This document shows, one piece after another, positions 481 to 52,085 of a stretch of 55,519 nt of DNA. Source of the stretch: Polychytrium aggregatum (lineage: Eukaryota; Chytridiomycota; Chytridiomycetes; Polychytriales); the NCBI RefSeq assembly GCF_025602895.1, contig NW_026516406.1, positions 1 through 55,519 of the forward strand, written 5' to 3'. Each line of letters opens with the position of its first letter. Position 1 is the first letter of the stretch. The translations under genes and the position numbers were made by a program. Under the pieces are notes generated by a model that was given only the letters and a program-made list of their open reading frames with translations, was not told the origin of the DNA and did not search any database.

Positions 481-1076
481 GCATGCAGATTCACCCCCTC
501 GCCGATCGGAATGGCCATGACTGGTTCGGGGTTCGCGTCTGTGGAACCTGGGGCGAGTGGTCCACCTGCCACTCTGGCATGGGCTGTCGCTGCTCGGCTG
601 TCGCTGGTGGCATCTGTGGGTGTCTGTCTCTGCTCCGATAATGCAGGAGCACCACGGGATAATGCAGAAGCACCATGGGATAATGCAGTGGATGGGAGCA
701 AAGTGGAAAGCGCCACCGCACCCCTCGATTGCCTCTCTGCCTTTGCTCCATCTCTCCCGCCATCGGAGTATCCCCCAAACAGGATGCGATATCTTGTTGG
801 ACCAACGAAAGATGCAATGCCTGCAACATTAGCCAGATCAAGTGGGGCGCACGATTGCTTTCGGGGTGGCTGCTCACTTCCCTGTTGGTTGCAATCGCAC
901 CCACCTTCACCGGTCTGTCCCACGGCCATCCGTCACATCCAGTGATCGATCGATCAACTCCAGAACGGCAGCGACGGTGCCGGGACCTATGGATGACAAG
1001 CTCGAAGGAATCAATGTTTATTCAGGGATTCGCACACATTTGCTGATATTGGAGCGATTTGGCCTCACAGATCGAG
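481..1076. other. Intergenic region, no gene recognised
   Basis: This is the 5' side of the partial gene and the 3' side of the nuclease. A short tandem triplication around 645-690 (caccacgggataatgcag, caccatgggataatgcag) is visible. Open frames here overlap on both strands and have no recognisable protein motif. Confidence 0.5.
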
Positions 1077-3249: not shown

Positions 3250-4003
3250 GGCGGCGACTGGTGAGATTATAGAAGAGGGACTACTCCGATGAGGTGCCTT
3301 GCGCCTTGTGCAGCGGCTCTTGCGGCTTGTTCATTCCCAGAGCCGTTTCGAAACGAGACACCTTCCCACGCGGATGATCGATCTGGCTGACTCATGTCGA
3401 TCGGCCACCGAACCCGCTCGCCGAGGTCGCCCACTCCATGCATCTCCATGTTCGCTCAGGACACCTAGGGATATGATTTGACCCACTCGGTTCAGAGTAT
3501 GATCCGATCCGACGATGTCATGTTTGTCTGCAAGGATCACTTCTCATCGTCCATTCATTTGACTGTCCGTCTCGCCTGGGCTTGTGCGATGCCATAGATG
3601 TGCGCAGCCACACAAACAGTGAAGCCCAAACTGGCTCGCTTGGACACAGCCGCCCTAAAATAGCCGCCGCGCCACAGCTCTCCACCGACACAGAAACTGT
3701 GCCGAGCCACACACACACACACGTTTGCTCGATCTGCCTGCGTCTCGGCTTGGACTTGATCGCTTGCATCGAAGCCTGTGCCTTGGCCTGGGTTTGATCG
3801 ACCTCTGGCAACTTGACGGACGAACGCACCGAGAAGCAGCCCACGTCGCCATCGTCCGGTCCCGAACGCTGCTCGTCCCAGCCGTGCGGTCATCTCCAGC
3901 CAGCGATTCGTCTGTCCTGAGCCAGCCAACCAGCCTTTCGCTGTCCGTGTCTCCAAACTTCCTGCAACTCACTTTGTAGAACGATACCGGTGTTTTCGTC
4001 AAA
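3250..4003. promoter_or_regulatory. Divergent promoter region, nuclease and carrier
   Basis: About 750 bases lie between two divergently transcribed starts. No coding potential was found. A CA run (cacacacacac) lies at about 3711-3721. No convincing TATA box was seen; ttctataatc on the minus strand near 3265-3274 is the only AT-rich candidate for the nuclease. Confidence 0.4.
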
Positions 4004-5648
4004 ATGTCCGTTGCGAACTCGTCGTCTGCAGGGCTGCCGCCGCATCACCACGAACACAGCCGCGACCACGACCACAGCCATCCGCTCGGCCATCCCAATC
4101 CCGCGGCCCATTCCGATGCTCATATCTTCAACATGAATAAGCTCATGCAGGCTGCCCAGCAGCACCCTGCCGAGGCTACCGTCACGGCCTCCAAAGCCCT
4201 GGCCCAGCTCGAGAGCGCCGGCGGAACTGACAAGCCAGGTGATTCCGCATCGGTCGTGCCGGGCTTCTATGCCGGTCTTGCCAAGGCGCTGGCCACCAAG
4301 TCGGCGTTCACGGCGACGGCCGTCAGCAAGGGCCTGCTCAAGTGGTGGTTCCGGTTCCCGGTCAAACTCTTTCGCCCCGTCGCAGTCAACCCGTGGCTGG
4401 TGTTCAACAGCATGGCCCAGAAGGAGGGCAAAAAGGTGTCGGTCAAGTACGTCCGAGATGTGGTTGCCGATGAAGGGGTAAGCGCCAGGTCGCAGTGTCG
4501 CTCGCGGCCGCTGATCGGCACGGGCGATGTCGTTGGTTGTCGCAGTGCTGCTGTCTTGGCGATTCGGAGTAATCGACGACTGGTGCGATCACTGCCCGTG
4601 ATCAGCAAGTTGTCGCTGGCGATAACGACCCGCAGGCTGATGCACCTCTGTCTTTCCATCGCAGTGGGGTGTCCTTGGCAAGAACATGATGCCCCTCCTT
4701 GTCGCAAATGCCTGCGTTGGCGCATTGCTCTTCAACGTCTATGGCGGCGTGACCGACTACATGGAGGCCCAGGGCTCGTTCCACTACCACACTCCGTTCG
4801 TGGCGGGCTTCCTTGCTGGTGGGGCACAGGCTGCTCTTGCAACCCCGCTCGACAATATGCAGCGGCACGTCAACCCCGCCGATATTGTCGAGCGTCGGCA
4901 CGAAGGCATCATCCGGTTCACGTACAACACCATTCGCCAGACGCTGCCGTCCGGATTCTGGGCAAGCACCAAGTTCCTGTACACGGGCCTGGGATTCACC
5001 GCCTTCAAGGATGCCCTTGGCTTCTCCATGTTCTTTGGCGTCTTTGAGGGCGTGCGACATGTCGGCAAGTCTCTTGTGGCAGAGTTCTTCAACTCACATG
5101 TCTCCCTGCCTACTCCAGCCGGGATTCTGCAGAATATCATCCCGATCCGGCCGCCCACCGAAGCCGTGCAGATCGGCGCACCGGCACAAGGCGAGCAAGT
5201 CGTTGTCCTGCCGACCTTCAATGCCCTCGAAGCCCGAGCCAACCAGGGTTTTGTCGAGATGGAGACGGAGGAGGAGCTTCAGCGGCGGCGGTCGCTGACA
5301 TTTACGCTGCTGAACGCCCTCGCTGTGATCACGGCCGGGGCTGCAGCAGGCATGGCGTACCAGGTCGTCATCTTCCCGGTGGAAAACATCCGTGCCATGA
5401 TCGGCAACGCCGCCGCCGAGGCGGCCGTCTCGAATGGCGACTGCGGCAACACGGCCAAGATGCGAGCCGAGCGGCACATGAGCCTCAGGGATGTTGTGCG
5501 GCTCCTGCGGAACGAAGGCTTCAAGCCCTTTTACAGTGGCATCCTGCCGCATCTGATCCGGGTGATGCCTCCAAGCGCCCTCGGGTTGCTTGCCTACGAA
5601 ATCGCGAGCTCCCAGTTCTTTGACAACGAGGACAGCCTGGAAAACTGA
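4004..5648 (+). CDS. Mitochondrial carrier family (SLC25) protein, divergent
   Basis: Inner-membrane solute carrier by family; substrate unknown. Two exons (4004-4477 and 4665-5648; intron gtaagc...cgcag) give 485 residues, longer than the usual 300. The N-terminal 70 residues are His-rich (HHHEHSRDHDHSHP) and unlike a carrier. The signature PX[DE]XX[RK] appears once cleanly (FPVENIRAM) and once degenerate (TPLDNMQRHV). Helix-like stretches LVANACVGALLFNVYGG, GFLAGGAQAALATPL, FTAFKDALGFSMFFGVFEG and ITAGAAAGMAYQVVIFPVEN fit the family's repeats. A charged loop with EMETEEELQRRR separates repeats two and three. The ATG at 4004 follows a stop-rich leader and is preceded by aaa. Other possibility: one of the poorly characterised fungal carriers with lost signatures. 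Confidence 0.85.
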
Positions 5649-6817
5649 GCGGGGCGACCGACTGGGACAGCAGAAGGGAGCATCCTCGTGCGGCTCGACG
5701 CGAAGACGATGCTGGGATGGACAAGCACTGCCACTTGGAGTGCCGTTGCATAGAAACAGAAGCAGAAGCAGAAGCAGGATGGTACTATGTACAACTTGTT
5801 GTTAGATGCAGACGAATCCTGTCGGCGATATCCCTCGCTGCTTGTCGAATCGCAGCATTGGTTCTCTGCGAAGCATTCTCGAGCCTCATGTTCCCACCAT
5901 GTGCACAGCATGTCCGTCATGTCGCCGTCGGTTCCAGCAATCCCAACTTCGGCCTCAATCTGAAATTCATCCGACCCGAGCCTGCGTCGCTGCCCTCGCC
6001 TTTTCGACCTCGACCCATGTATCCCTTTGCATTTCATAACTGTCCCAATATCGCATCATACCACACCTATCCACACTATTTGTCGAGGCACTCATGACGG
6101 CCGCCTGTCGTGATCCTAGCAACTCCGGATGCGACGCTGAGGGACGTTCCGGGTCTGGTCTGTGACGGCCATTTTCCTTGCTACTAAATACATGCAACAG
6201 TGACCTGACCCGCTGGATGTGTCTCGTGTCTCGTGGTGTGAATGGTTGCGAGCCGATCCGTGCGAGCCTATCCGCGAGGCCTGGGAGTCCGTATTCAAGA
6301 CGAGTCCGCATGCATGGAGTGTCCAAGGCAAGAGTATAGCCTCCTGTCTGCAACAGGGCCACAGTCTGGTCTCTGGAAACGAGATCAATTCGCAAGCACG
6401 CCTTGGCGGACCGTCTCGAGATACCAGAGCTGAAGCATTGATGTGACCGTGGCCGTCGCCACACAAATACTGGGAATAATATATTCAAGACTACAAGCGA
6501 TGAATAGCCGCACTTTCTAACCCGCCATGCAGGCCTGTGGTGTGTTTCAGAGGCCAGTCACAGCCTGGTATCGAGCGAATCAAGGTGAGGTGAAAGCGGA
6601 TTCAATGTATCGAGGTCCGAGTGCGGTCTGATTTTCGCTGGACCCGATGCGTGGAGGTTGATGGTACAGTCGATGACAGCCGGAGGCGGTAGTCCGGCTT
6701 CGATGCATGTGTGCTTCACAATGGCGCTCCACGGATACAGCACAGCGAGGTGTCTCGGATCGGTCGGGGTGCCCGTTACTGATGACCTGGATGCGCCCGA
6801 GTCCGGTCCGGATCGAT
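5649..6817. other. Intergenic region between convergent genes
   Basis: About 1.2 kb separates the carrier stop from the stop of the small basic protein. An agaagcagaagcagaagcag run lies at about 5757-5777. Several open frames of 60-170 codons exist, but none has a recognisable motif, signal or consistent splice pattern. Both genes' 3' UTRs are probably here. Confidence 0.4.
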
Positions 6818-7433
6818 CTAGTTGATTGCTGCAGGCATATTCATTCCCTTGAACCGTCGGCCACGTCGCTGGTAGGCCAGGTCGACATAGTCCTTGTGCC
6901 CATCCAGCAGCCGCTTCTTCTCCGGGACGGCGCCCTGTTTGGGGCCGGTGTCATCGGCAGGCACACCAGCCTCCATTTCATAGTCTTCATCTTCGTCATC
7001 GTCATCGCCCTGGTCTCGAGTCGAGGCCAATTTGGCATTCCGTTTCGATTTTGACCGTAGCTGGGCGGTGGTGTTGACGGCATTGGCGATGAGGGCTGGC
7101 AGGGGACTGGCCGAGGCGGCGGGCGAGCTGTCGGCGGCGCCGGCGACAGCAGCCTGGATGACTTTGGTGAGGACCTTCTTTGCATCGGAGGTGCTGAGGG
7201 GCTTCTGGATGGCACCTGGGTCCGAGTCCTTGACGATCTTGATCATGTCCTTTTCCTTCTGTGAAGCGTTGCAGCAGATGCACACGGGCAATGGAGACAG
7301 CGGCACAAGAGAAGAAGGACGACGGAGGGTTAGCGAGGGACGGGTTGGACATGGAAATGCAGCTCGGACGGCACGGAGAGGAACGTCGACATGCCTTGGT
7401 GGGTCGCTTGAAGAACTTTGCGGACTTGCCCAT
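6818..7433 (-). CDS. Small basic/acidic protein of unknown function, probable nuclear; GC-AG intron
   Basis: Not recognised. Exon 1 (7433-7395) encodes MGKSAKFFKRPTK and exon 2 (7258-6818) opens KEKDMIKIVKDSD. Together they give 159 residues ending KGMNMPAAIN. The only in-phase join uses a GC donor (AAG|GCATGT) with a cag acceptor; no GT donor in exon 1's frame works. The start is strongly basic. The middle has an acidic tract (GDDDDEDEDYEMEAG), and near the C-terminus lies an Arg-rich YQRRGRRFKG patch. Such a composition suits a nucleic-acid or chromatin associated protein, but that is only inference. The Fanzor-1 transposon end lies about 290 bases upstream of its ATG. Confidence 0.65.
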
Positions 7434-7725
7434 GACTGCGGTGATGGATGTAGGTGGAGTGATGCACTATGAAAAAAGTTCTTGTTAATAAAATGAGCGA
7501 GAACGAAAAAACGCGCTCTCGGAGCCACCTCGGTTGGCGAGAAGAGCAATCTCTGGCGAGAGACCCCCGAGGGAAGGCGAGAAGCCTCTCGCCGTCACAC
7601 ACACACACTTTGCACAAGGGAGTCAAACACCTCCCATCGACCATCCCAAGAGGGATGGCAACCCCGAAGTGGACTGCCCAGAATATGGGCGACCCGGCAT
7701 CCACTGTCGAAATGAACAAGATACT
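7434..7725. promoter_or_regulatory. Upstream region of the small basic protein, next to the transposon end
   Basis: It contains a short CA run (cacacacaca) near 7597-7606 and no coding motif. An AT-rich spot (gttaataaaatg, 7486-7497) is the only base-composition break. The Fanzor element boundary follows immediately at 7726. Confidence 0.35.
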
Positions 7726-7765
7726 TACAGTCTATCCAGAAAGAAACGGGACAGTCACTTTCTGG
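7726..7765 (-). repeat. Terminal repeat of the Fanzor-1 element (TA + CAGTC...), hairpin-forming
   Basis: The segment begins TACAGTC and contains ccagaaag (7736-7743) and its exact inverse ctttctgg (7758-7765), enclosing AAACGGGACAGT. The same arrangement occurs at 51809-51848, and a diverged version at both ends of the 17231-20227 element. The shared core is a TACA start followed 20-25 bases later by GGGACA. A TA at the boundary is the Tc1/mariner target-site signature. Confidence 0.7.
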
Positions 7766-7965
7766 TTTCTGAAGCCCGCTGGCTGACTGTAGGCCCAGCG
7801 GGCAGGCCATGGCATTGCACTCCTGTCTTCGTTGGCAATCGAGTGGTTTTGGTTGGTTTGGGAAGCATAGTCTTGAATACACCCGGCCGATCTCCTGTGG
7901 CGATGATCGACTGGCATACCGAGATCATGTTCCGTGAGGCATTGATGTCTCGATGTGTGAGTGTG
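7726..7965 (-). ncRNA. Candidate Fanzor guide-RNA (omega/fRNA-like) region
   Basis: In TnpB and Fanzor loci the guide RNA overlaps the end of the nuclease gene and runs to the transposon end. Here the stretch between the Fanzor-1 3' end and its terminal repeat holds two perfect 8-bp stems: ccagaaag/ctttctgg (7736-7743 with 7758-7765) and cccgctgg/ccagcggg (7775-7782 with 7795-7802). A block ending ttggcaatc (about 7790-7850) is also kept in the miniature copy at about 51870-51931. Retained sequence outside the frame supports a non-coding role, but no transcript evidence exists here. Boundaries are approximate. Confidence 0.4.
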
Positions 7966-10333
7966 GTGCATTCACTCGACTCTCAGGACAACTCCATGGT
8001 GAATCGATATCAAGATGCTCGACCTTCTCGAGTTGTTTGGCTTCCCGGCAATGTGAGTACACCTGTGATGTGTTGAACTCGTTCACCGAGCACACATGGA
8101 TCTTGGAGACGGATCGGTCTGGTTGGCGTCTCTGGTGGTGGATGAACTGCTCAAAGTATTTGGCAAACCTGAGTCTCCTGGGACTGGATGCATATCCCTT
8201 CCCTTGCTTCCAGGATGCATTCCCAAAGGCAATCACCACCTCGGTCTCCTTTGGTGCCTGGTCGATGACTTGCTTGCACATCTCTTGGACAGTGCGCTGT
8301 CGCTTGCTGTGGAGATCGAGTCGCTTGAATCGCCGTCGCCGGGTCAGGCTGAAGTACAGCTGCTTGGCCAGCATGTCTCCATCGAACACATGGCGAATGT
8401 ATTGCAGGAAGGGATCCAACCCAGGGATCTTGGGACTTGGTGTGGTGCTCATCCATTCCTGCAGACCAAGGATCTTATGGGTGCTCTGGATCCACTTGGT
8501 CGCCTGGCTGGTGCCACATCGATGCTGGTACTCCTTGTTGGAGAACGACACGATCTTCTCGTTGGCGCGCTGTGCCTTGGTCACCTTGACACCGTCTTGC
8601 TCCTGGATGGATGGTTGTCCGGGTGCTCGAATGACAGCGGTGAAGATCGATCCCACACCAGGGTCGATCCCGATCCATGTGGTTCGAGAGTCGTCAATGG
8701 GACCGACCCTGGTCTGGATCTTCTTCTCGGGAGTGAGCTTGGGTGTCTTGTCGTCCTTGTCCGTGGATTCTGGTTTTACATCAGGGTCCTTCTTCTCCAG
8801 GATCTTGTATCTGAGCGTGGTGATTGAGCACCCGACTCCATCGGTGGTGATCTCGCAACCAAAGAGCTGCTTCCCTTCCTCCCTGGCACCAAAGAGTCTC
8901 GGATCCAGCTTGAAGTTGGTCTGCCAGAAGGTCTCTTGCTTTGTGGCGTCGTCGACCTTGGTCTTCAGGTCGTCCCACTTGAGTCCAGTGCCAGTCTGGT
9001 ATCCAAGGATCTCCCACAATGCTTTGGTGTCGAGCTTGACATACTTTGCTCTGGCATCACAGAGGGGAACCAAGGTGCACTGTGCTCGAGGGGCATTGTG
9101 TCGCTTCTTGGTCTGGGCAAGTCGGTCGGTCAATCGCTTTATCCGTTTCATGTTGATGGTGATCTGCTTGTCCACCTCCTCGTGCTGGGTCTGGAGATCT
9201 TTGAGTCTGTCAGCCCCGATGTGGTGGATGGGTTGGCTCATCTCCTCGTTCAGTCGCCCACGCTCTCCTTTCAGAACATCGGTCACCCTCGCGAGCCTGG
9301 GAATGATCATCTTCTGAAAGACCACCATGAAGAGGGCCTCCTTCAGGTGGGTCAGGCGAGAGACCTCACTGGCCAGTTTCGATACAACTCGATACAGGTC
9401 CTGGTGGCTTTCGTACCGAAACTTATACAGCTGGTCGGCATGGTGGGCGAAGGATTTTCTCAGATCAACGAGGAGTGTCTTGGAGAGGGGATTCTCCATC
9501 AACTTGACACAGTTGTCGACGTGTGTGTGACGTTTGACATCCTTCGGAGCAACCAGGACCAGATTGCAGTATCGGCGTAGAAGGGACCAATACCGATCGA
9601 GAATATGGGTCTCACAGTTGACGGCATAGGCCTTGTCAGCCAAACCAAGGACCTGTGAACCAGTACCCTTTGGGAGGGACACTGGAGGCAGGATACACGA
9701 CTCACTCCATGCACGTCGATACATGTCATATGTGTCGAGGAGGTGCCTGTCATCTTCTGGGGTGTTCGTCCTGACACCCACTGTTCCTGTCTGCACCATG
9801 TTGAAACACTTTCGAACAAACGAGGAATCACTCGACGACACAGTGGGGAGAGTGATGCCCTCGTCCAAGCACCGCCTGAGATGCAGCTCCAGGAGACGAG
9901 ATGCTTCGTACTGGACTTGGGTCATGGCCCGGACAGTCTCCTCGATCTTGTCGTGCAAGGCATCGTTCTTGATGATGGCATCGAGGGTGCACTTGACGAT
10001 CGAGTACTCGGCCTTGGCATACTCGTTGGGGCCACAGTCAGGCAAGGTAGAGCTCCAGAGTGGGTTCTTCTTGGTACACAATGAACTGTTGCTTCTGGCA
10101 TGACCCTCTTCCCCGCACGTGGCACATACAGGGACCTTGGGTGCTTGGCTGACCATTTCAGCGACCGAGGCAGGGCTGCTGTCGATTCTGGCTGTGCACT
10201 TCTTGGTGAAGGGCCTAACATGGTTGGTCAGGCCACAGGCACGACACGATTTGATGGTGAACTTCTTGGCCACAGGATAGTCATTGGGTGATCCCGGGTC
10301 GGGATCGGGGGGTGTCTTTCGCTTGGGAGCCAT
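7925..10333 (-). pseudogene. Fanzor (eukaryotic TnpB-like RNA-guided nuclease), copy 1, C-terminus out of frame
   Basis: The 802-codon frame starts at MAPKRK (10333), matching MPPKRK of copy 2 and giving an immediate basic nuclear-import-like motif. That is why the upstream in-frame ATG at 10453 is not used. N-terminal zinc-knuckle motifs follow: CRACGLTNHV and CATCGEEGHARSNSSLC. A Lys/Arg-rich helical middle leads to the RuvC-like core: IGIDPGVGSIFT (Asp557), VVIAFGNASWKQGKGY and VNEFNTSQV (Glu752). The last motif, RDINASRNM (its Asp codon at 7949-7947), lies one frame off, so the present frame ends in unrelated residues (...ETSMPHGT). The first zinc-finger Cys after NTSQV is also Tyr. Likely inactive by itself. 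The family call is firm; the frame change could be a sequencing error, though the miniature copy has the same spacing. Confidence 0.85.
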
Positions 10334-12416
10334 CTGGCGAGAAAATAGCAGCGATGGCTGGTTCTGCCCTTGGGGAAGAAAAATTCTCCTCAAAACCAGC
10401 GCATTTTGGGCTGGCAGAGATACTGTGCAGTGGCGTCCTTGATTCAGGTCCACAAACGCATCGCTCGCTCAATCAGTCGTGGGAAGACATCTTGTCAAGG
10501 TGAGTCTTGCCTGATAGCCAAACGATCATGTCATCTCGCTGACACACAGCCACGCTTGACTGGGTTTCCAACCAGAGAGATAGATGGTGGTGGTTCTTGT
10601 CCGCAATCGGAGTGGAGCTTCCAACAATGATCCAATTGGTCATTCCTCCACACCAATTGCCCACCCTCACCATCAATCGGCTCAAGGTGATACCAAATGC
10701 CGTCAACCGACCATGGCCGGATTCCAACTTTTGCTGCTCCACATTCGACGTGACTTTCAGGTGACCGAGATGAGCAGCCTCGAGGGGGACGGAAAAAATT
10801 GATAGTGATGGTTGTGGGCCAAGAAGAAAAGCGCAGCAGTCGGAGTTGAATTAGGGTTGTATCCAGGGCAGAGCCAGGGTTAGGGTTTGAGCATGTGTCC
10901 GGCACGTGTGCTCATCCCGTGATCTGGTCCCCTGACCGCATGAGTCACTCCAGACGGCTGGCCACATCTGGCCAGCCACCCCGTGTTCCCACCCCCACCG
11001 CGGGCCCCGGTTCGTGCGCGGGCGCCGAGCGCCGATTGGTCTCCCTTGCCAGTGAATGGCCAGAGATACGGGCTGGGCCGAAAGCCGATAGGTAATGTCT
11101 GTGCGACGCAGCTCTCGCCGAGACGCTCTCGCCGTGCTCTCGCCGCGGCTAGATGCTGGGACGGCGAGCGGTTCGGGTCTCGCCGCGTCGTTATCAGCGG
11201 AGGTTTCGGCTTGCCATTCCGTTGGTGCTGGTGCGCCGTTATCGCCCGTGTGCGAGCAAGCGGTTCGTGGGACAGCTGTGCAGTGTCGAGGTGCGCTTCA
11301 GTCGCCTGTGTATCCGCACTGTGGACTGTGTTTGCAGCTCTGCGGGAGTGGCTGAGTCCACTGCCGCAGCAGCCCCGCCACAGCTGGCTGCTCTGATACA
11401 CAAACAGCAGCACACAGTACAGCACCACACAGCACAACGGCACACACAAACACCCGCCTCCGCCGACACAACAAACACAGACAACACGCCGCCCTCTGGT
11501 GTCTTTGCCGCCGCCCTTGCCTTGGGTATCTTCCTTCTGGCCCGCCGCGGTATATCTTGGCCGTCCTTCGCCGTCCTTCGCCGTTCTTCGCTGACCTTCT
11601 TCTGCTGCCTTGCGTCCTTGGCCTGCGTCTTTGGCCTGTGTCCTTGGCTGCATTCGCCGCTTGCGCCCTGCTTGTCGCAATAGCAAACATCCGTCTTCGC
11701 CGTCCCCGCCCCTCCCACCCTCCCAGTGCAATATTTGCACGGGGCCCGATCGTCGTTCCGTCTTGCGTTCTGGTCCTTTCCTGACCTGCGGCCCCTCCCC
11801 TCGGCCTACTTCTCACTCACATTCCCCCGTTGCCGATCTTCTCCCACCGGCACTCCAGCTCCGTGTAAATACCCCCGCTAGGTCCCTGAGTGTAGCACGC
11901 TTTCCGAGAGCAATAAACGAAACTGCCGTTTGCCCTCCTCCAATTGCCACTCCTTCCCAGCCCTTCCCCCACAACCCCTTCAATCCCCACCACCTCCGAT
12001 TTTGCCGGTCTCTTGGATCCGGACCCTCTTCGTCCGAAACCCCGAGTGCGAGCCAAGTGTCTTTCCCTCGTTTGTGCTCTAAATCATCCCAGGCGGTCTA
12101 AGAACGCCCCAAGCATCCATTTTGTGTCTCTGGAGATCATCAGAAATCGCTGGCTGTTGCTAGATATCGCCGAGCATCTTTGACTGGACAGCATCTCCCG
12201 ATCTTCAACTCCCACACACACTGCAACTGCATTCGGTCTCGCCGACTAGACCCGACCGCATCTCGACTCATCTCCGGCCGACCATCAGTCTCTCTCCCTC
12301 CGGGCGTGCTTGAATCTGCTCGCAATCTGCGCAATCGCAGACAAACAATCACAGCCGCAATCTCAGTCACCATCGCAGGCGCACTGTCTCAACCACAATC
12401 GCCACCCCCCACACCC
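10334..12416. other. Long intergenic/leader region between Fanzor-1 and the kinase
   Basis: About 2 kb without a recognisable gene. 10431-10447 (gtggcgtccttgattca) is nearly repeated at 52068-52084 next to the miniature copy and may be near the element's other end. 11560-11600 has tandem cgccgtccttcgcc units. 11800-12416 is C/T-rich with many short frames and probably contains the kinase promoter and a long 5' leader. Two telomere-like hexamers (ggttagggtt) lie at about 10877-10887. Confidence 0.4.
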
Positions 12417-14273
12417 ATGTCGACTTCAATGCCCGCCTCGGCACCTCCTGCCGTCATGGAGCGCTCCCCCATGTTCACCAAGGTCAACTCCTCCAATGGC
12501 GGATGCGCCTCTCCGGCCGTCGTCTCGGCCCTGGCCTTTGGCCTTCAGCAACAGCAGTCGAACACTCCCTCGGGCGCCAGCGTCATCCGACGCACCCCCG
12601 AGCCGCCAACCCCGCTGCGGGCCCCGATAACCCTGCAGCGGGCCAAGGACCAGCAATCGTACACGGCCCGGACCTCTTGCACTGGCCCGCTCGTCAAGCC
12701 GCTCGGCAACCTGGTGCTCTCCCCCACCAGCTCGTCTCCTGAGCTCAATACCTCCTCGACTCTTGTCTCCGAGTCCGCCTCCCAGGGCCGCGGCAGCGAC
12801 GAGGCCAACCCGTCGTCCCTCTCCTCTCGCAGCGCCCTTGAGCAGCGGCGGTCCTCCAACGTCGTTGTCAAGCGGCGTCAGTCCTCCACCTCGGTGAGCG
12901 CCGGGACACCCAACGACGTAATGACTCCTCAGATCAATGCATTTTCGTACAGCTCGCTGGATCCCTCGCCCGCGGTCTCGTTCTTGGCCGCCTTTGCGGA
13001 CGCCTCGCCGACAGGTGCGTACAGTTACACCCGGTAGCGCTTTCTCTGTTTGCCCCGCCCACGTACAGCCGAAGCCTCCGGCTCGCCCACTCTGCCCTCC
13101 CTCCCCCTTCCCGAATCACGCCCGCGGCCATTGGTAGATCGCTTTTTTGCTTCGCTATCGCACGGCTTGGCAGGGGTGATCGGTTGAGAAGGCGTGCGCA
13201 TTCCGCATTATCGTTTGTCTTGTCGTTTGTCTTGTCGTTTGTCTTGTCGTTTGTCTTGTCGTTTGTCTCGTCGTTTGTCTTGTCGTTTGGCTCCACACGC
13301 TAATTTGTGCGACCCCCCTGCCTTTGGCTCAACAGCACAACATCTCCCGTACCAAGAAGGCGATCAAGTCGGCGACTGGATGCTGGTGCGCAAGGTTGGC
13401 CAGGGATCCTTCTCGGAAGTGTTTGAGGTCGAGCTGCAGAGCCTGAGCCACCCAACTCACCCCGCCCGTGCTGCCCTGAAGGCTATCCAGAAAAAGTCAC
13501 ATCCAGACATTTCGCAAGAATCCCTCGAGCGCTCGGTTTTGCACGAAGTTGACCTCTGGAAGGACCTGATCCACCCCAACATCAACCGCATGATTGAGTT
13601 CATCGAGACGGCCGACGCCATCTTTGTTGTCTCCGAGTTTTGTGACAGCGGCAACCTCTTCCAAATGATCCAGACACACGGCGCCCTGGCCGAGTTCAAA
13701 GCCATCAGCATCGTCCGCCAGGTGGCCGAAGCCGTGCGCTATCTTCATCTGGACCACCGCATCGCCCACCGCGACATCAAGCTCGAGAACATCCTTGTGG
13801 ACGATGTCAGCAACACCGTCAAGCTCTGCGACTTTGGCCTTTCCGAGCGCTTTGCCATCAGCCCGGCGTGCTCCTTCTCGGCCATGTCCGACTTTTCGGC
13901 CGACAATGGCGACGTTGCCGGCATTGCTGGCTCGATCCACTACTGTGCCCCCGAGGAGCTGCAGGAGGGCGCCACCTCGCCTGTCACCGGCACCGGATGC
14001 CACGTCAGCGCCGCCGCGAGCGATATCTGGTCGCTCGGCTGCGTGCTCTTTGCAACCGTGACGGGAACCCTCCCCTTCAACGACGACTATTTGCCGCGGC
14101 TGCAGTTCAGCATCATCAACGGCCGCTACGACAAGTCCCGCTTTGTCGATTGCTCCGTCTCGGAGCTCTGCCAGAGCCTGATCGAGGGAATGCTGCAGAC
14201 CAAGATCGAGAACCGGCTCACGATCGAGCAGGTCCTGGACCATCCCTGGCTCAAGCTCGACCAGAGCCAGTAA
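12417..14273 (+). CDS. Serine/threonine protein kinase (CAMK-like) with Ser-rich N-terminal extension
   Basis: Two exons (12417-13014, 13336-14273) give 511 residues; the phase-1 splice reads ASPT-AQHLPYQEG. Residues 1-200 are Ser/Pro/Thr-rich, probably disordered and a likely phosphorylation target (RRQSSTS). The kinase domain occupies about 210-507. It has a Gly loop (VGQGSFSEVF), catalytic Lys (ALKAIQKK), HRDIKLEN catalytic loop, CDFGLS Mg motif, HYCAPEEL and SDIWSLGCVLF, ending HPWLKLDQSQ. All catalytic residues are present. An insert between DFG and APE (SPACSFSAMSDFSADNGDV) lengthens the activation segment. Subfamily placement (Snf1/CAMKL-like) is by general resemblance only. Longer in-frame starts upstream are possible; this ATG was chosen because preceding sequence is low complexity. 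Confidence 0.9.
13211..13292 (+). repeat. 12-bp tandem repeat inside the kinase intron
   Basis: Six units of tcgtttgtcttg (fifth unit tcgtttgtctcg) plus a partial seventh fill the 3' third of the 321-base intron. It is pyrimidine-rich and ends about 43 bases before the acceptor, so it could serve as an extended polypyrimidine tract. Confidence 0.9.
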
Positions 14274-15488
14274 GCCGCCACTGCAGGGCTCCTCTTGGTC
14301 CACAACCACTCTGTCCAGCGATCAGGCTGGTGCCATTTTTTTGCCCTCGAGCGGCACCCACCGCACCCAGCTCCGTCTCCATTTCGCACTGCAGTGCTGT
14401 TTGAGCCTCCCTCCACCATACCTCTTGTCCACATCGCATCGCCCACTGCACGCCGTTTTGCTGCTGCACGTACTGCATCTTTAATCCCCTCCCTCCCTCA
14501 CCACCCAAGACCATTCTGGTTAATGTCTCTATTCCCCCCACCACCCATCTTTTTTTTTTGGTCGTCCTCTTCTCGCCGCCCGGCTGCTAACCGCTGTCCG
14601 GTCTGCATTCCCGTCTCGCTTGCGAGGCATCTCGAGTCGGACTGCTCACACACACCCCTCAGCATGCACCTTTTTGGATATCGCTTGTGCTTGCCGTTTT
14701 GTTCATTTGCTTGCTATCGTCTATTCCTTGTAGTCCAATATCAGTACCAGCTTTCACCTTGTCTTTGCCTGCCAAGTTCTCGTTCTCGCCATGGTGGCTT
14801 GGCGCCACGCCTTCTCCCCGCCCACTGCTTCCTCTTGCCTCCGTCTCACCATGCTGCTGGAGAAGGAAAGCGATGGAGACATTTTCTCTCTTTTCTTTTT
14901 GAATACAAAGTAATCCGAGCTCGCCCCATCTCGCCGCCATCGCAATAATAGTGCCAAGCAGTAGAGATGACACGGAGCAGACTCGCTGCCGCGGATGGCT
15001 GGATCTCGCGATATTCCTGCCCTCAATCTCCCAGATTCAGACCAGGGGACGGTTCAGGGGCATGACAGACGCCAGGCAAGTCTGCGGATGTCTCACGACG
15101 ATGGATTCAATCCGATAATCCAAAAAGTGGGGGAGAGCGAGGGAAACAAACGCAAGTAAAGATTTGAGAAAGCGATAGAGGCGATCAAGCGGAGCGGAAA
15201 GCGATTGAAATAGAGTGAGGAAACGGTGGGCGATGGCGGGGGGGGGCATTGCCGATACCAACAGAGGCATTGGCACAGGGCAGAGGGCGGACCGGTGCTG
15301 GATGGATTGGCGACAGTGACGGCGGCGGTGGTGGTGGACTTGATCATGAGCTCGAGACTTGCTTGGCTATCAATGCCATCGTTGGACAGGGAGCAAGCGA
15401 CATACAAACCAAATGCCTGCAGGATCCCAATAAAATGCTCGCCTGGCCGCCGCTGTCTCCCCGCCCCTTCTCTCCTGACAAATATCAA
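14274..15488. other. Intergenic region between convergent genes
   Basis: About 1.2 kb separates the kinase stop from the GPI-type protein stop. A T10 run lies near 14551 and an extended C/T-rich stretch at 14300-14900. Open frames exist on both strands but look like composition artefacts. Nothing else seen. Confidence 0.4.
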
Positions 15489-16325
15489 TTACATCCAGAA
15501 TACATAGAGACCGGCGACAAGACCCAGAGACCCGAGAACCAGCCCGTGGTCGCCCAGGAATCCGCCGCGAGACGAGCCGGCCCCGTTCTTGAATGGACTG
15601 ACGACGATGGTGTTGTTGACCTGGGCAGTGGGCTGCACCGCCGGCGCCGCAGCGGAGGCTGCGAGCAGATAGACAGGGCCAGACCAAGCCTGGATGCCAT
15701 TCTGCGTGCCATCCGCAACCTTGAGCTGTGTGGCGTTGAAATAGGTGTAGATCAGGTAGGTTTCGGTTGGCTGGGGAGCCCAGGCTTTGCTCGAATTGCC
15801 TGTGGTGGTGCCGTCGGTCGTTGCCGCAGTCGGGGCGGCAGAGCTAGCGCCGATCTGGACGCTGGGCTCGAGCGTAAACGAGACCGAGGACGAGCCGGCG
15901 GGCCAGGTGAGCGGAGCAGCCGCATAGCTGGCGACCAGGCCAGTGCCGTTGGATGAATCGAGGGGCGTGACGATGACGGTGTTGACGGTGTGGCCTCCTG
16001 CCGTGAACTGTGCCAGGCTCACGGGCTTCTTGACCATGTACGAGAACTGCACCCGACCGGGCTTGAGCTGAAGGGCAACGTTGGTTTCGGTCTCGACATA
16101 GCTGACGACGATGGTGTTGCTGTCGGTCCAGTTGATCTGCATCGGGATGATGGAGATTGCACCCGAGGACATTGACGTCGGCGGCACCGATGAGTTGCAC
16201 TGGACCGGGCTGCAGTTTGTCGTGAAGGTCAGGACGGCGAACGAGTGCTCGACCAGCACGGAGAGCAGCAGCAGGACGGCAAGGCGGGTTTGAACGAGGC
16301 GGAATTGAGCGAGTGACTTGAGCAT
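15489..16325 (-). CDS. Secreted, probably GPI-anchored surface protein of unknown function
   Basis: Single exon of 278 residues, not recognised as a family. Start MLKSLAQF at 16325 is followed by a hydrophobic signal peptide (LAVLLLLSVLVEHSFA). The mature part has two near Cys (TNCSPVQCNSS), several N-glycosylation sequons and beta-type composition (IPMQINWTDSNTIVVSYVE; PGRVQFSYMVKKPVSLAQF). A Ser/Thr/Ala-rich stretch comes next. The C-terminus has small residues (NGAGSSRGG) followed by a hydrophobic tail with no basic end (LVLGSLGLVAGLYVFWM), the pattern of a GPI-attachment signal. An ATG two codons upstream (MIMLKS) is equally possible. Confidence 0.8.
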   Translation of the reverse strand: MLKSLAQFRLVQTRLAVLLLLSVLVEHSFAVLTFTTNCSPVQCNSSVPPTSMSSGAISIIPMQINWTDSNTIVVSYVETETNVALQLKPGRVQFSYMVKKPVSLAQFTAGGHTVNTVIVTPLDSSNGTGLVASYAAAPLTWPAGSSSVSFTLEPSVQIGASSAAPTAATTDGTTTGNSSKAWAPQPTETYLIYTYFNATQLKVADGTQNGIQAWSGPVYLLAASAAAPAVQPTAQVNNTIVVSPFKNGAGSSRGGFLGDHGLVLGSLGLVAGLYVFWM

Positions 16326-16444
16326 GATCAACGGAGCAGCGACCCGGTGAATTGGGGAGAGGGATTGAACTTGTTGATGTCGGATTCAAAGTTGGCTGTT
16401 TTGTCCGTCCAAGAGGCTAGCTGGATACGCGGCTGGCTGCAGTG

Positions 16445-16480
16445 GTCGAGGAGGTCGAGGAGGTCGAGGAGGTCGAGTGG
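16445..16480. repeat. GTCGAGGAG tandem repeat
   Basis: Three perfect 9-base units and a diverged fourth (gtcgagtgg), about 120 bases upstream of the surface-protein start. Confidence 0.85.
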
Positions 16481-16848
16481 GCTGAAGCTACTGGTGGATC
16501 AAGCTGCGGTGTAGCTCGCGGTGTCGCTGGAGATGGTGTCGATGAGGACAAGGTGGCCCGGCAGCGGTGTATGAGGAGGAATGGCAGGACGAGACCTGCG
16601 GCTGGCTGGGGGAGATGGATCTGTTTTGGAGACAGCGTCTATGGAACGCTGCGGGAGACGGGCTGTCTGGGCTGCTCGCCGGCGGCAGGAACGGGGGAGG
16701 GTGTTGAGAGCAGAAAGGAGGGATCGGAGGGATGGGTGGTTGGTCAGATGTCCAGGAGCGGGGGTCTTTGGTCGAAAATAAGGGGTGGGCGGTGCGGCTG
16801 GGCTGGTGGTCCCGTCTTGGTGGAGCAGGGATGTCCGGGACGGAGATG

Positions 16849-16918
16849 CGATGGCGACGGCGATGGCGATGGCGATGGCGATGGGTGCCGAGATGGGTGC
16901 CGAGATGGGTGCCAAGAT
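16849..16918. repeat. CGATGG hexamer array followed by GATGGGTGCCGA 12-mers
   Basis: About six cgatgg units (one cgacgg) run directly into three 12-base units, the last with one change (gccaag). The two arrays share the gatgg core, suggesting one grew from the other. Confidence 0.85.
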
Positions 16919-17083
16919 GGCGATGGGACAGCCAACGATGGCGAGGAAGAGCGGATGCGTTGAGTCGTTCGTGGGTGGATTTGTCGAGCTCGTTTCGGTC
17001 GGTCAGTCGTCGCTTTGTTTGCCGGGTCTGTTTGTTGCCCTGCGCACAGCCGGCACCGCCGCACGCACCGCCGCATGCACGGC

Positions 17084-17194
17084 CACGCATGGCACCAGTT
17101 TTTTTTTTTTTCATCAGATGGGTCCGGTTATTAGACAGACTTTTGCCTTAGCGTCCCGTTCGGGCTCTGGCACTGGTTGCACGCATGGCACCAG
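17084..17194. repeat. 15-bp direct repeat enclosing a T-run segment
   Basis: cacgcatggcaccag occurs at 17084-17098 and exactly again at 17180-17194. The 81 bases between begin with T13. The pair lies just outside the Fanzor-2 terminal repeat at 17231. It looks like a small insertion or duplication footprint; its origin is not determined. Confidence 0.75.
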
Positions 17195-17230
17195 ATATGC
17201 AATCCGCTCGCTCGACACGACTGGTCCATG

Positions 17231-17258
17231 TACACTATACACATAGCAAATGGGACAC
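17231..17258 (+). repeat. Right terminal inverted repeat, Fanzor-2 element
   Basis: Begins TACACTATAC and contains AAATGGGACAC. It aligns with the inverse of 20200-20227 and with the Fanzor-1 and miniature-copy ends. Confidence 0.65.
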
Positions 17259-17330
17259 TTGCCCATGACCCATATGTCAGCGTAGTGTGGGATGACATGC
17301 GTCTAGCTATGCCACAAGAAATGGAACAGA

Positions 17331-19669
17331 TCACTTTGGCAGCCTCCGAGTGAAGACCACCGGTCGCTCTCCGATCTCCACAATCGACCTGCACACTGTG
17401 ATCATGTTGCGCGCCGCATTGACGTCGCGATTCCACACTGTCCGGCAGCTGGGATTCTTGCAGCTCCTGACAAAGTGGGAATTCGCAACACTGGGCGCAT
17501 CGAGTCCTTCCAACCGAATTGGCTCCAGGCACTTGGAGCACACTTGCGAGGTGTTGAACTCGTTCGTCGAGGCCACCTTGACGCTTCCGTGAGGGTGAGT
17601 GGGACGGCGTCGGTGGTGCTCGAACTGCTCAAAGTACCGAGCAAATCGCTGCCTCCGAGGGCTGAATGCATAGCCCTTGCCCTGCCGCCATGACGCATTG
17701 CCAAAGGCGATCACCACATCGGTCCGTATCGGGGCGTGCTTCAGGACGGCCTTGCACATCCTGTCGACGGCCACTTGGCGTCTCTTGTGGCCCGTGAAGC
17801 GATGGTGACGGGCCTTCTTGCCAAGGTGGAAGTCGAGCTGCACTCGCAGCTCCGGTCGCAGGACATGGGTGAGATGGACCTTGAAAGCCTCCGAGGACGA
17901 CACCTTGGGCGAGGGGGTGGTCGACATCCAGGTCTCGATGCTGAGTCGATACTTCATGATATTGTGCCACTCAGTATTGGACGTATGGCCACACATGTGC
18001 TGGTAGTGGCCATTGGAGAACGAGACCACCTCGTCTTGGTGGCCCGGTGCTTGGATGACCGCCGTGAAGATGGAGCCGACTCCAGGATCGATGCCAATCC
18101 AAGTGGTGCGATCGGGGTCTGGGTCGCCGATGTGGGCCTGGATGCGCTGTTCGGCAGTCGGAGGAGGCTCGATGGTCTCGGTGTGATCGGTTCGAGGCAG
18201 AAACTTGACGAGGCCGATGGTGCATCCAATGCCATCGGTGCTGATCTCGTAGTTGAACAGCTTGTGATTGATATCCCGGTCACGGAAGAGGGAACTACGC
18301 AGCTTGAAGCAGCTGCGCCAGAGACGATCCTGGTTGTTGACACCGTCCTCACCTTCTTCCTTGAGCATGTCCCAGGTGAGTCCAAGGCGTTTCTTTGGAC
18401 CAAGGAGCTCCCAGAGAGTGACGGTGTCGATCTTGACATACTTGGCCTTCGCAGTACAGAGAGGAACTATCGTGCACACGGCCGGAGGAGTGTCCAGAGC
18501 GAGCTGCTTGAGTGCCCAGTTGATCCTGGCGGCCAGCTTGTTGATCTTGGCCTTGGTGGTGCCGAGCTCCGACTTGGCCGTGGTGAACCTCTTGTCGTCG
18601 GAGGGAATGCCTCGGGCAGTGAGCTTGTCCAGCTTGGCCTGGCGCTGCAGCTCGGTGACTCGGAGGGCGGGCATGTCACAGTCGATCCACTTGTGGACAT
18701 CGTCCTGCATCTTGTCCCGGGCAAGGATTCTCACATGGTGTGAGAGGCGATGGAGGGCCCGGAAGCGGTCCTGGTCGTTGCTGTACCGAAACTCGTCAGG
18801 ATGTGGCCAAACTCGGGATAGAGGAACTCGAGATCGGCCTTGGGTGGAGTCGAGTCCGGTTTCTCGAAGAGCTCGAGACAGGCCTCGATGGCTTCGTGCT
18901 TATGCTTGTTGGCAGGGAAGACGGCAGCGCAGAAGCGGCGAAGGAGTCGCCAGTAGGCCAGGTCGAGGTGGGTGGTGCAGTTGGTGGCATAGGCATTGAC
19001 AGCCAGTGTGAGAAGCTGACTGTGAGCACCATCAGGCAGACGAGGGGCCGGAGGCAGGTCTGCGTGCCGAGTGGACTGGTAGTCGCGAAAGGATTTGATC
19101 AGCTGCTCGTTGTATTTCTTGGTATCCCTGGCCGTCGAGAGGGCACCGGCCTGGACGATCTTGAAGCATTGGCGAACGAAAGCAGGGGTGGACTTGGATA
19201 TGACGGGGATGGGAAGATCCTGCTCGATGCACCGGAGGATGTGCAGGTTGAGCAGCCTGGATGCCTCGAACTGGATCTGGGTCATGGCCTCGACGGTGGC
19301 TTGGATCTTGTCGCGGAGAGCGGGATTGAGCCACTCGCCGTACTCGTTCTTCCAGAAGAGTCCATCCATGGTCTGCTTGAAGCAGCTGTATTGGGGGACG
19401 GATGTCCTGCCATCTTCCATGAGAGGAACGACCGAGCTCTTGAGGGGCCAGTAGTTGGGACAAGCCTTGCTCGAAGCCCGAGAGTGACCTGGGAGCTGGC
19501 ATGAAGCACAGACAGGACCGGGGTCGGTGGTGTCGACATCCATCGACTCGACAGGAAGCTCGGTGGGTGTGGGTGCGGGCACAGGAGGAGGAGTGGGTGG
19601 TGTGGCCCTGGTTGTGGTGCGTTTGGGCCTGGGTGGCCGAGAGGGGCCGCCCTTGCGCTTCGGAGGCAT
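17331..19669 (-). pseudogene. Fanzor (TnpB-like RNA-guided nuclease), copy 2, one frame break
   Basis: The start at 19669 (MPPKRK, basic) is followed by a Pro/Thr-rich stretch and a zinc-knuckle-like CASCQLPGHSRASSKAC. About 290 codons then lead to a frame break near 18796-18806: downstream sequence resumes one frame over as DEFRYSNDQDRF, matching KFRYESHQDLY of copy 1. The second frame, to 17331, holds a complete catalytic half. It includes IGIDPGVGSIFTAV (Asp codon 18089-18087), VVIAFGNASWRQGKGY, NEFNTSQVCSKC (Glu codon 17561-17559) and the second Cys pair RSCKNPSC. RDVNAARNM (Asp codon 17426-17424) is in the same frame. Total would be about 780 residues. A single-base gain or loss explains the break; it could be real decay or a base-call error. 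Confidence 0.85.
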
Positions 19670-19796
19670 GAGCGCGGAGGGTGCTGGATGCCTGCAAGTG
19701 GTACTGGTCAGGGCAAAGACTTTTTTTATCGTAGAATGGCGCGATGTTCAGATCAAGGCGAGATGAGGGAAGAAAGGATATCGGAGGAGGTGTGGC

Positions 19797-19803
19797 TTTT
19801 ATA
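19797..19803 (-). promoter_or_regulatory. TATA-like box upstream of Fanzor-2
   Basis: Minus-strand TATAAAA lies 128 bases upstream of the Fanzor-2 ATG and inside the element, so the transposon may carry its own promoter. It overlaps no recognisable part of the transposase relic. Confidence 0.45.
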
Positions 19804-19837
19804 CCTGGGCTCGTCTGGCGGACTGGCAGAGGGTCAT

Positions 19838-20128
19838 CGGGTGAGCAATCCTCCTTGATGCGCCAAGCAATCCACACGACGAAACGATGGCCACATGCAT
19901 CGACCATCCACGCCAACAAAGCCACTGACAAGGAATGATGGCGCCTTGGCAGTCGAATCAGATCATCGATCAGATTGCACACCTTCCGCCAGCTGGGGTC
20001 TTGGAGTGCCAGCGGTGAATGGTGCTCTTGGACACACTGAAGATGGTGGTGACCTTGCGCAAGCTGCGGAGCAGCGAGTAGCATCGCAACGCTGCGATGC
20101 GGAAATCGAGGTTGCTGTGTTTGGCCAT
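19838..20128 (-). pseudogene. Relic of transposase N-terminal helix-turn-helix region
   Basis: A 52-residue frame (20128-19970) opens MAKHSNLDFRIAALRCY and continues with KVTTIFSVSKSTIHRWH, a classic helix-turn-helix ending in the 'STIHRW' recognition helix. Its stop is closely overlapped by a second frame (KVCNLIDDLIRLPRR, then LSVALLAWMVDACG), which looks like the second winged-helix half of a Tc1/mariner transposase. The two halves are one frame apart, so a frameshift has occurred. No catalytic domain follows; Fanzor-2 begins about 170 bases on. Alternatively the 52-residue frame is a small intact DNA-binding protein. Confidence 0.55.
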
Positions 20129-20199
20129 GAATGCGATGAGTGGGTGGGTGTGTATTCAAGTTTCAGAAAAATACACAGTATGGCTCAAAACGGGGGGGG

Positions 20200-20227
20200 T
20201 GTCCCGTTTCATTTTGGAAACGCTGTA
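20200..20227 (-). repeat. Left terminal inverted repeat, Fanzor-2 element
   Basis: On the plus strand it reads TGTCCCGTTTCATTTTGG and ends CTGTA at 20227. It closely matches the inverse of the Fanzor-1 end (TGTCCCGTTTCTTTCTGG...CTGTA). A second, weaker copy of TACACAGTATGG lies just inside at 20172-20183. Confidence 0.7.
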
Positions 20228-20343
20228 TTTCGGCACGGTGCTCTCCAAGTCAATCGCATGCAGTGGCCGGGGTGAAGAGGGCACGAACGAGCACTTGTCC
20301 GCTTCGTTCTGCGCCGGCCGTGTTGCATCGCAGCCACCGTCAT

Positions 20344-25470
<5,127 letters not shown>

Positions 25471-27810: not shown

Positions 27811-27883
27811 GGCTGCGAGATGGGATCGGACTAGGAGGATGACCAGCACTCGGCGCTTGAGCCGATGGCCGCTGCGACTTGAC

Positions 27884-51807: not shown

Positions 51808-52085
51808 ATACAGTCAATCCAGAAAGAAACGGGGCAGTTACTTTCTGGCACCAGCGACACAGGACTGCTGATCCGTAGGCTCTAGCGAGCAAGCCATGCG
51901 ATTGTTCTCGTCCTGGTTGGCAATCTCCTAATGTGGTGCATTCACTCGACCCTCTGGACAGCTCCATGGTTTCTCGATATCAAGATACTCGGCCTTGTCG
52001 AGTCGCTTGGCTTCTCAGCACTGTGAGCACACCTGGAGATCGAGTCGCTTGAATCGCCGTGGCTGGGTGGTGTCCTTGATTCAAA
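51808..52085 (-). mobile_element. Miniature, internally deleted Fanzor-1-type element
   Basis: It begins with the same terminal sequence as Fanzor-1 (TACAGTC, ccagaaag/ctttctgg stem at 51819-51826 and 51841-51848). It keeps the 3' non-coding block (about 51870-51931) and then the end of the Fanzor frame (51940-52035, matching 7965-8067). At about 52035 it jumps to sequence matching 8311-8345 (agatcgagtcgcttgaatcg). Then it carries gtccttgattca as at 10436-10447. The remaining Fanzor text keeps the CSQC zinc-finger pair but has a stop right after it. Starts 49 bases past the Axl2-like stop, so it may lie in that gene's 3' UTR. The far boundary is uncertain. Confidence 0.7.

Follow-up and report, generated by a model that had tools for sequence, protein, structure and literature searches.

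The window analysed here is the entire 55.5-kb contig NW_026516406.1 (55,519 nucleotides; labelled C118) of the chytrid fungus Polychytrium aggregatum, in an assembly of 64.7 Mb and 418 contigs, and it carries on its minus strand two broken genes for Fanzors, which are RNA-guided nucleases. These genes, called copy 1 and copy 2, lie in elements of two transposon families, and their presence is not due to chance because dozens to hundreds of homologous places occur in the same genome. Contigs are designated by C and a number and extracted loci by L and a number (L045, for example, lies on C46). The allelic partner of the window is C386:858000-873500. An earlier note on this DNA had described the two genes as broken in opposite halves, and the analysis below concerns how such breaks arise and spread.

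The open frame of copy 1 covers 7925-10453, and the Fanzor reading frame beginning with MAPKRK at a plausible ATG at 10333 covers 7925..10333 (minus strand). The RuvC residues Asp557 (codon 8665-8663) and Glu752 (codon 8080-8078) are both in frame, and the RDINASRNM motif (7926..7952, minus strand), which starts at 7952, lies in another frame; the earlier note had given this arrangement with exact residue numbers. An alignment of 31 sequences shows that the break is a replaced block of about 50 bp (7956..8003, minus strand, limits approximate) and not a simple insertion or deletion. The block hits the second half of the zinc ribbon, destroys the second CxxC and shifts the frame. The TNB domain (Pfam PF07282) was not found in copy 1 or in its out-of-frame C-terminal piece, and the Fanzor motif D-X(125,275)-[TS][TS]-X-X-[C4 zinc finger]-X(5,50)-RD is absent in frame from this copy. 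The same lesion block is present in three other aligned family-1 insertions (C35/C380, C408 and C132/C375). On C386, the allele of copy 1 has normal sequence upstream, switches inside the block and retains the 3' part of the lesion, which carries variants otherwise found only in the window copy. In this allele the last motif is back in frame, and the N-terminal frame is broken instead.

In copy 2, the RuvC and zinc-ribbon part (17331..18734, minus strand) holds all three acidic motifs in one frame, contains the TNB domain (PF07282, E 8.8e-10) and includes the Fanzor motif, and the N-terminal Fanzor part (18731..19669, minus strand) is in a different frame. The frame break that had been placed upstream near 18800 maps to a single base (18796..18796, minus strand) by comparison with the C386 allele, from which copy 2 differs there by one base. 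The copy on C375 carries this break plus the same adjacent variants, and the break is missing from three other short-frame family-2 copies read across this stretch (C52, C334 and C381). As the earlier note had concluded from frames and motifs, each copy alone looks unable to yield a complete nuclease.

Restoration of the frames in RNA, through splicing or programmed frameshifting, would leave both genes functional, and introns do occur in other Fanzor1 genes according to the available part of Bao and Jurka 2013 (PMC3627910). We consider this extremely improbable. The zinc-ribbon cysteines of copy 1 are replaced by foreign sequence, many relatives are single uninterrupted frames, and the break in copy 2 is one base that its allele does not have. 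Frameshifting and splicing were rejected on the grounds that foreign sequence makes up the break in copy 1 and that each lesion is missing or incomplete in the corresponding allele; the proposal that the copies depend on frameshift correction likewise finds no support in the foreign block, the sharing of lesions or the in-frame stretch of C386. The idea that the two half-broken copies complement each other was dropped, there being no evidence for it.

Copy 1 belongs to a family-1 Fanzor element of CACTA type (7465..10807, minus strand) in which no transposase was seen. Its limits are directly observed as the points where homology to other insertions ends, and both are sharp when copy 1 is compared with other family-1 loci. 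The element begins with CACTATCAATTTTTTCC at 10807 and ends with TTTTTTCATAGTG at 7465, and it is flanked by a 3-bp target-site duplication, ATG on the plus strand, at 7462..7464 on the 3' side and 10808..10810 on the 5' side. A perfect 3-bp duplication is present in 16 of the 20 distinct family-1 insertions with both ends readable (23 distinct insertions in all). Contig C113 carries a 5.7-kb CACTA element with a Transposase_21 match and an ACG/ACG duplication that starts with CACTATGAAAAAA, the complement of the family-1 3' end; the two share a 13-bp terminus. Copies at three other sites are 99.95-100% identical to it and two show their own 3-bp duplication (L041:2757-8446, L059, L060, L061), and because of this identity at four sites the 5.7-kb transposon has probably moved recently and is likely active. 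The termini, the 3-bp duplications and the terminus shared with a Transposase_21 element make family 1 best described, by its sequence, as a CACTA-type element without its own transposase, for which the 5.7-kb element is a candidate partner source.

The family-1 5' terminus occurs at 122 places with at most two mismatches. Three of these, read away from Fanzor matches, are two 1.6-kb elements with the same internal deletion and one small remnant. The most conserved part of the analysed stretch 7465-10365 is the candidate omega-RNA region at 7465..7665 (minus strand; 97-98.5% mean pairwise identity). Predicted RNA folds were compared with those of shuffled sequences for three 3' ends, and none was clearly better (z -0.71 for 7465-7665, -0.50 and -1.60), and Rfam gave no match at the gathering threshold in window positions 6000-21000. 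Family-1 elements of the L007 type contain some 370 bp that are absent from the window copy; this additional stretch follows about position 1177 of the oriented locus and precedes the coding region.

Copy 2 belongs to a family-2 Fanzor element of Tc1/mariner type (17233..20225, minus strand), identified by its sequence and terminal pattern and internally reduced. It reads CAGCGTTTCC...GGGACAC from 20225 and ends in GTATAGTG at 17233, with TA target-site duplications at 17231..17232 on the 3' side and 20226..20227 on the 5' side. The terminal pattern is common to its relatives L045 and L053 and to the related L044 and L046. Loci L044, L045 and L046 each have the TA duplication, matching terminal repeats and an open transposase frame of 325 amino acids, and the L044 frame, the one tested, contains a DDE_3 domain (E 7e-24). 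The window copy has the termini and the TA, and of the transposase only a remnant of the N-terminus with its helix-turn-helix (19970..20128, minus strand), of which 103 bp are 79.6% identical to the transposase region of L045 and in which HTH_23 is matched weakly (E 0.0036, under the curated cut-off). Across the assembly, DDE_3 was scored at 150 places of 335 candidates, and DDE_3 transposases lie upstream of family-2 Fanzors.

For family 1, the 30 loci examined, including copy 1, are the best 30 of 54 long matches; for family 2, the sample consists of the 91 best-scored places out of 1249 candidates. A 24-base family-2 marker is found with at most three mismatches at 530 places, including deleted copies such as that on C135, and its reversed control at none. 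Among the 91 places, 70 have frames of at least 700 amino acids with no stop in the match, 11 have frames under 600 amino acids and 10 contain stops; the figure of 70 is an upper bound for intact genes because the copy on C46 (L045), which is among them, switches frame near the N-terminus. In family 1, 15 of the 30 loci, representing 12 distinct insertions, contain a frame of 886 or more amino acids that passes four motif patterns, which are loose, since L027 passes with one zinc-ribbon cysteine replaced. The share across the whole family is possibly lower because the 30 loci are the best scorers. The earlier note had expected a third, intact copy elsewhere in the genome; open-frame copies do exist, and they are dozens of members rather than one. 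It had also proposed dN/dS across the copies, and nonsynonymous (dN) and synonymous (dS) divergence were computed on 11 other family-1 frames and not on the broken copies. The means are 0.068 and 0.187, a ratio of 0.36 that is similar in both halves, and the ratio against the mariner-borne L044 is 0.31. The ratio of about 0.36 suggests that selection maintains coding capacity across the pool of copies rather than at individual loci.

The identification of these proteins as Fanzors draws on motifs and domains. The TNB domain is present in four of four open-frame relatives tested (E 7e-10 to 3e-9), and the Fanzor motif in open-frame relatives such as L012 (Asp557 ... T755 S756 ... RD in the numbering of protein alignment A1). 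Residues E752 (NEFNTS motif), the candidate repositioned RuvC glutamate, and G704 are invariant in a 12-sequence alignment, and their placement resembles that of the conserved Fanzor1 G and E as far as the accessible text of PMC3627910 describes them. A Fanzor structure model is weak (predicted local distance difference test score 47), and its top PDB match is SpuFz1 (8gkh) at E 0.15, with none at E <= 0.001. Searches of a set of 5.8 billion proteins with query P0001 and with a 12-protein alignment returned no relatives at E <= 1e-5 and 1e-3. In alignment A1, for example at columns 396-411, short blocks dense in amino-acid differences occur in two or three versions, and which version a copy carries is independent of its remaining sequence, as with interchangeable cassettes.

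Nine of the 54 family-1-type places are set apart by 81-82% identity to copy 1. The two of these that were read (L044 and L046) lie in mariner elements straight after the transposase, and four more have a DDE_3 match listed alongside. Loci L044 and L045 have a common 5' terminus and transposases that are 96.65% identical at the DNA level, and their Fanzors are far apart (L045 is 45% and L044 84% identical to the family-1 L012). By these identities in L044, L045 and L046, a single Fanzor lineage is carried by elements of either kind, CACTA-type or mariner, and a single transposase module accompanies two Fanzor lineages. In L044:843-4475 (plus strand) and L046 (minus strand, about 573-4289), the transposase and the Fanzor share a reading frame with a single stop codon between them, and read-through of that stop would yield a transposase-Fanzor fusion of about 1200 amino acids.

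Alleles of the same insertion differ far more than the DNA around them. Between C118 and C386, 12 of 9115 aligned bases differ outside the elements (0.13%), against 149 of 3319 in element 1 (4.5%) and 101 of 2993 in element 2 (3.4%). These differences are patchy, with no substitution in 19,250-20,225 of element 2. At window position 20639, C386 has 60 bp more of a 20-bp tandem repeat. The 30 loci include seven further family-1 pairs that share their flanks, and these have 5, 18, 102, 90, 0, 138 and 76 substitutions inside the element, which pooled gives 429 in 25,300 inside and 12 in 12,351 in the flanks. A pair of 1.6-kb family-1 ghosts has 38 of the 40 substitutions of a 3.2-kb stretch inside the element, and a 285-bp family-1 element is identical on both contigs including the flanks. 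For family 2, C13/C331 is nearly identical (1 substitution inside, 2 outside), and C373/C135 has 24 substitutions inside and 1 outside plus a large structural difference. Where a strong excess is defined as at least 24 substitutions inside and about nine times the flank rate or more, 8 of the 13 pairs have a strong excess inside the element, 1 has a moderate excess (L010/L030, 18 inside versus 1), 1 almost none and 3 none. An allelic excess is seen directly in most pairs.

The variants that distinguish alleles are mostly shared with other insertions. Of 542 sites differing within eight pairs (coding-to-3' part, 31 sequences), both variants occur in other copies at 487, one is private at 55 and both are private at none; random mutation would give about 14% shared variants. 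In 23 copies, one per insertion, the mean squared correlation between sites (r2) is 0.61 below 10 bp, 0.33 at 10-25 bp, 0.13 at 25-50 bp and 0.055 at 50-100 bp, and beyond 100 bp it stays at 0.045-0.052 with a background of 1/22 (0.045). This decay was never reached in 500 trials with shuffled site positions. The frequency spectrum is near the neutral curve, with 201 singletons versus 181 expected and 48 sites versus 30 expected in the most balanced class. Tracts identical to sampled donors are at most about 350 bp long. The pattern is like that of a freely recombining population of alleles, here dispersed over different insertions. Plain decay, in which broken copies were transposed to several places and exchange is unnecessary, would account for the same lesions at several insertions and for ghosts with shared deletions at different sites. 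We judge it very unlikely, given that in most pairs examined the divergence between alleles of one insertion far exceeds that of the flanking DNA, that lesions in one allele are absent or half present in the other, and that linkage equilibrium is reached beyond about 100 bp.

One family-2 insertion is observed in two forms. On C373 it is complete; on C135 about 2.4 kb are missing and 8 bp of filler occupy the junction. Both alleles have the same termini and TA, a single substitution and a small indel separate their flanks, and the substitutions within the element cluster to either side of the deletion. The junction occurs at 16 places including C135 (9 exact and 7 with one mismatch), which makes an independent origin of the C135 deletion unlikely, and one form of this insertion was probably copied over the other.

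The lesion of copy 1 can be followed in a similar way. A 27-base lesion probe, allowing three mismatches, is found at 67 places, of which 6 are exact, all of them family-1 copies, and 61 are others. One of the latter, the sole one read, is 51,944-51,970 of the window, within part of a third, deleted (ghost) Fanzor element (51809..52068, minus strand; also on C386 near 903511) that matches both the lesion and L044. Its zinc-ribbon segment aligns with the copy 1 lesion over 79 bp at 86%, and its 3' end with the mariner-borne L044 in three stretches at 86-94%; its terminal repeats were not recognised by the terminal pattern used. The simplest reading of these resemblances is that the lesion of copy 1 was copied from a deleted, mariner-related Fanzor ghost. 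Variants too are shared between hosts: L044 and L046 differ at 221 sites, and at 88 of these the CACTA-borne family segregates the same pair of bases, where 2000 null trials averaged 20.6 such sites and never exceeded 35.

We consider it likely that copy 1 and copy 2 are defective members of two Fanzor-bearing transposon families, in which non-allelic copies repeatedly overwrite one another in short patches, by a pervasive ectopic gene conversion that would act even across transposon superfamilies. Judging by the C386 allele of copy 1, a lesion may also be overwritten when the patch comes from an intact copy. The main rival is an assembly artefact, in which read correction or polishing would have mixed repeat copies; the mosaic and the allelic differences would then be unreal, and the copies would be ordinary decayed transposons. 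The excess is confined to multi-copy sequence, the patches are short, most variants are shared with other copies and the smallest repeat pair, the 285-bp element, has no difference, all of which speaks for such mixing. Rare variants, on the other hand, are not lost as they would be under a majority consensus (the 201 singletons exceed expectation); this rules out majority-consensus errors only, because random mixing of pieces also preserves allele frequencies. Further points against an artefact are that some 3.7-kb pairs are identical or nearly so, that one orthologous insertion has a 2.4-kb structural difference, that C386 holds a half-lesion chimera, that nearly identical 5.7-kb CACTA elements were assembled at four sites and that the 31 family-1 sequences checked contain no N. 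On balance we regard the artefact as unlikely and infer that the allelic and mosaic pattern reflects conversion rather than assembly error.

Several points weigh against conversion of this extent. Three pairs (L024/L025, L047/L048 and L051/L052) show no excess and L007/L008 almost none, and the pairs are not a random sample because the family-1 pairs are those with both alleles top-scoring and the family-2 pairs were taken from likely contig partners. Lesion sharing between insertions may partly reflect transposition of an already broken copy, and consensus or hybrid-correction errors in repeats may produce mosaic alleles such as those seen in the assembled contigs. The resemblance of the lesion to a donor comes from a single one of the 61 non-exact probe matches. 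The CACTA- and mariner-borne genes remain separated by 80 fixed differences, and part of the variants that they share may be retained ancestral variation. A non-Fanzor repeat of similar divergence was sought as a control among RVT_1 and CACTA transposase places and was not found; these cannot show exchange because the RVT_1 places are mostly equal-scoring and clustered and the CACTA copies are 99.95-100% identical. As a separate observation, many retrotransposon reverse transcriptase copies with a 1284-amino-acid frame and the same score form tight clusters that are possible centromere islands (C11, C115, C173, C201, C366, C374, C1:1.27-1.32 Mb and other contigs).

Conversion of this kind would most likely proceed in the following steps. 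Breaks or gaps would arise in an element through transposase excision, Fanzor cutting or other damage, and would be repaired with another copy as template. Complete repair would leave a patch, and interrupted repair would leave a deletion with filler, that is, a ghost. A ghost serving as template would spread lesions, and an intact copy serving as template would remove them. This chain would fit the cut-and-copy role that has been proposed for TnpB and, in the portion of PMC10432273 available to us, suggested for Fanzor. More tentatively, and with considerable doubt on our part, the Fanzors themselves, guided by RNA reading into the flank, may cut sites after excision or inside copies, with repair from dispersed copies turning the families into a freely recombining gene pool. 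If this is true, broken loci would be rewritten from intact ones, ghosts would return lesions, sequence would cross between CACTA and mariner hosts, and the genome would carry a footprint of the proposed cut-and-copy role of TnpB and Fanzor proteins. The benefit of Fanzors to their carrier transposons has been described as unknown (PMC10432273), and this genome, where hundreds of Fanzor places, haplotype contigs in pairs and recognisable tracts of exchange coincide, allows their role to be tested directly. The results suggest that a mobile nuclease family may stay functional by shared repair, and single broken copies would therefore say little about the activity of the family. Related Fanzors joined to CACTA and mariner elements may also indicate how such genes change hosts.

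Elsewhere in the window, a kinase gene has its best named matches in chytrid fungi at 41-43% identity, and the stretch 25440-27830 recurs at many other genomic places with about 70-85% identity. A 10-kb DNA query taken from the window yielded repeats of that identity alone, without the window itself, and was kept out of the allelic comparison.

Parts of this picture are already known from the available portions of earlier work, namely fungal Fanzor1 families with ghosts and TA duplications (PMC10432273, PMC3627910) and conversion between transposon copies (PMC4384637). A full-text literature search found no pairing of Fanzor with CACTA or EnSpm, which is weak evidence of novelty as most subscription journals lie outside such a search, and among papers on TnpB and gene conversion none was about exchange between copies, judged by titles and the beginnings of abstracts. 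The one paper found that names both Fanzor and EnSpm does so in separate places, and the single paper found on Fanzors and chytrids was PMC10432273. Among the closest known systems is SPu-1 with SpuFz1 from Spizellomyces punctatus, where, according to the accessible text, Fanzor1 is carried by a fungal DNA transposon that has TA duplications and numerous copies, along with numerous ghosts lacking the gene (Saito 2023, PMC10432273; Bao and Jurka 2013, PMC3627910). The families here likewise place a Fanzor in a fungal DNA transposon with many copies and ghosts, family 2 also with TA duplications. A C-terminal RD...RPxVF stretch can be aligned to SpuFz1, though weakly; the sequences otherwise have very little in common (E 0.2-1), and the proteins are larger, at about 800-900 amino acids. 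Family 2 also differs from SPu-1 in its more than 500 marker matches, its relatives carry their own transposase, and a related Fanzor lineage occurs in a CACTA-type element as well. Some Fanzor transposons are stated to reach hundreds of copies in the part of PMC10711439 that was available.

The elements PGv-1 and PUl-1, as described in the available part of PMC3627910, are Tc1/mariner elements with Fanzor1 and TA duplications, and share with those described here the combination of a mariner-type transposase and a Fanzor in one element; here, unlike there, one transposase module is joined to two distant Fanzor lineages (L044 and L045). Family 1 is like CACTA/EnSpm transposons in its CACTA termini, its 3-bp duplications and the 3' end that its Fanzor element has in common with a Transposase_21 element, and unlike them in carrying a Fanzor as the only gene seen. 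For exchange between copies, a close parallel is that of the ISX elements of Drosophila miranda, where non-allelic gene conversion is reported with 68.9% of polymorphisms on average shared across sites (PMC4384637, available part). Here too, transposon copies at different sites share polymorphisms, and by comparison with that account the present case differs in that an RNA-guided nuclease gene is affected, two transposon superfamilies are involved and paired contigs of one genome take the place of a population.

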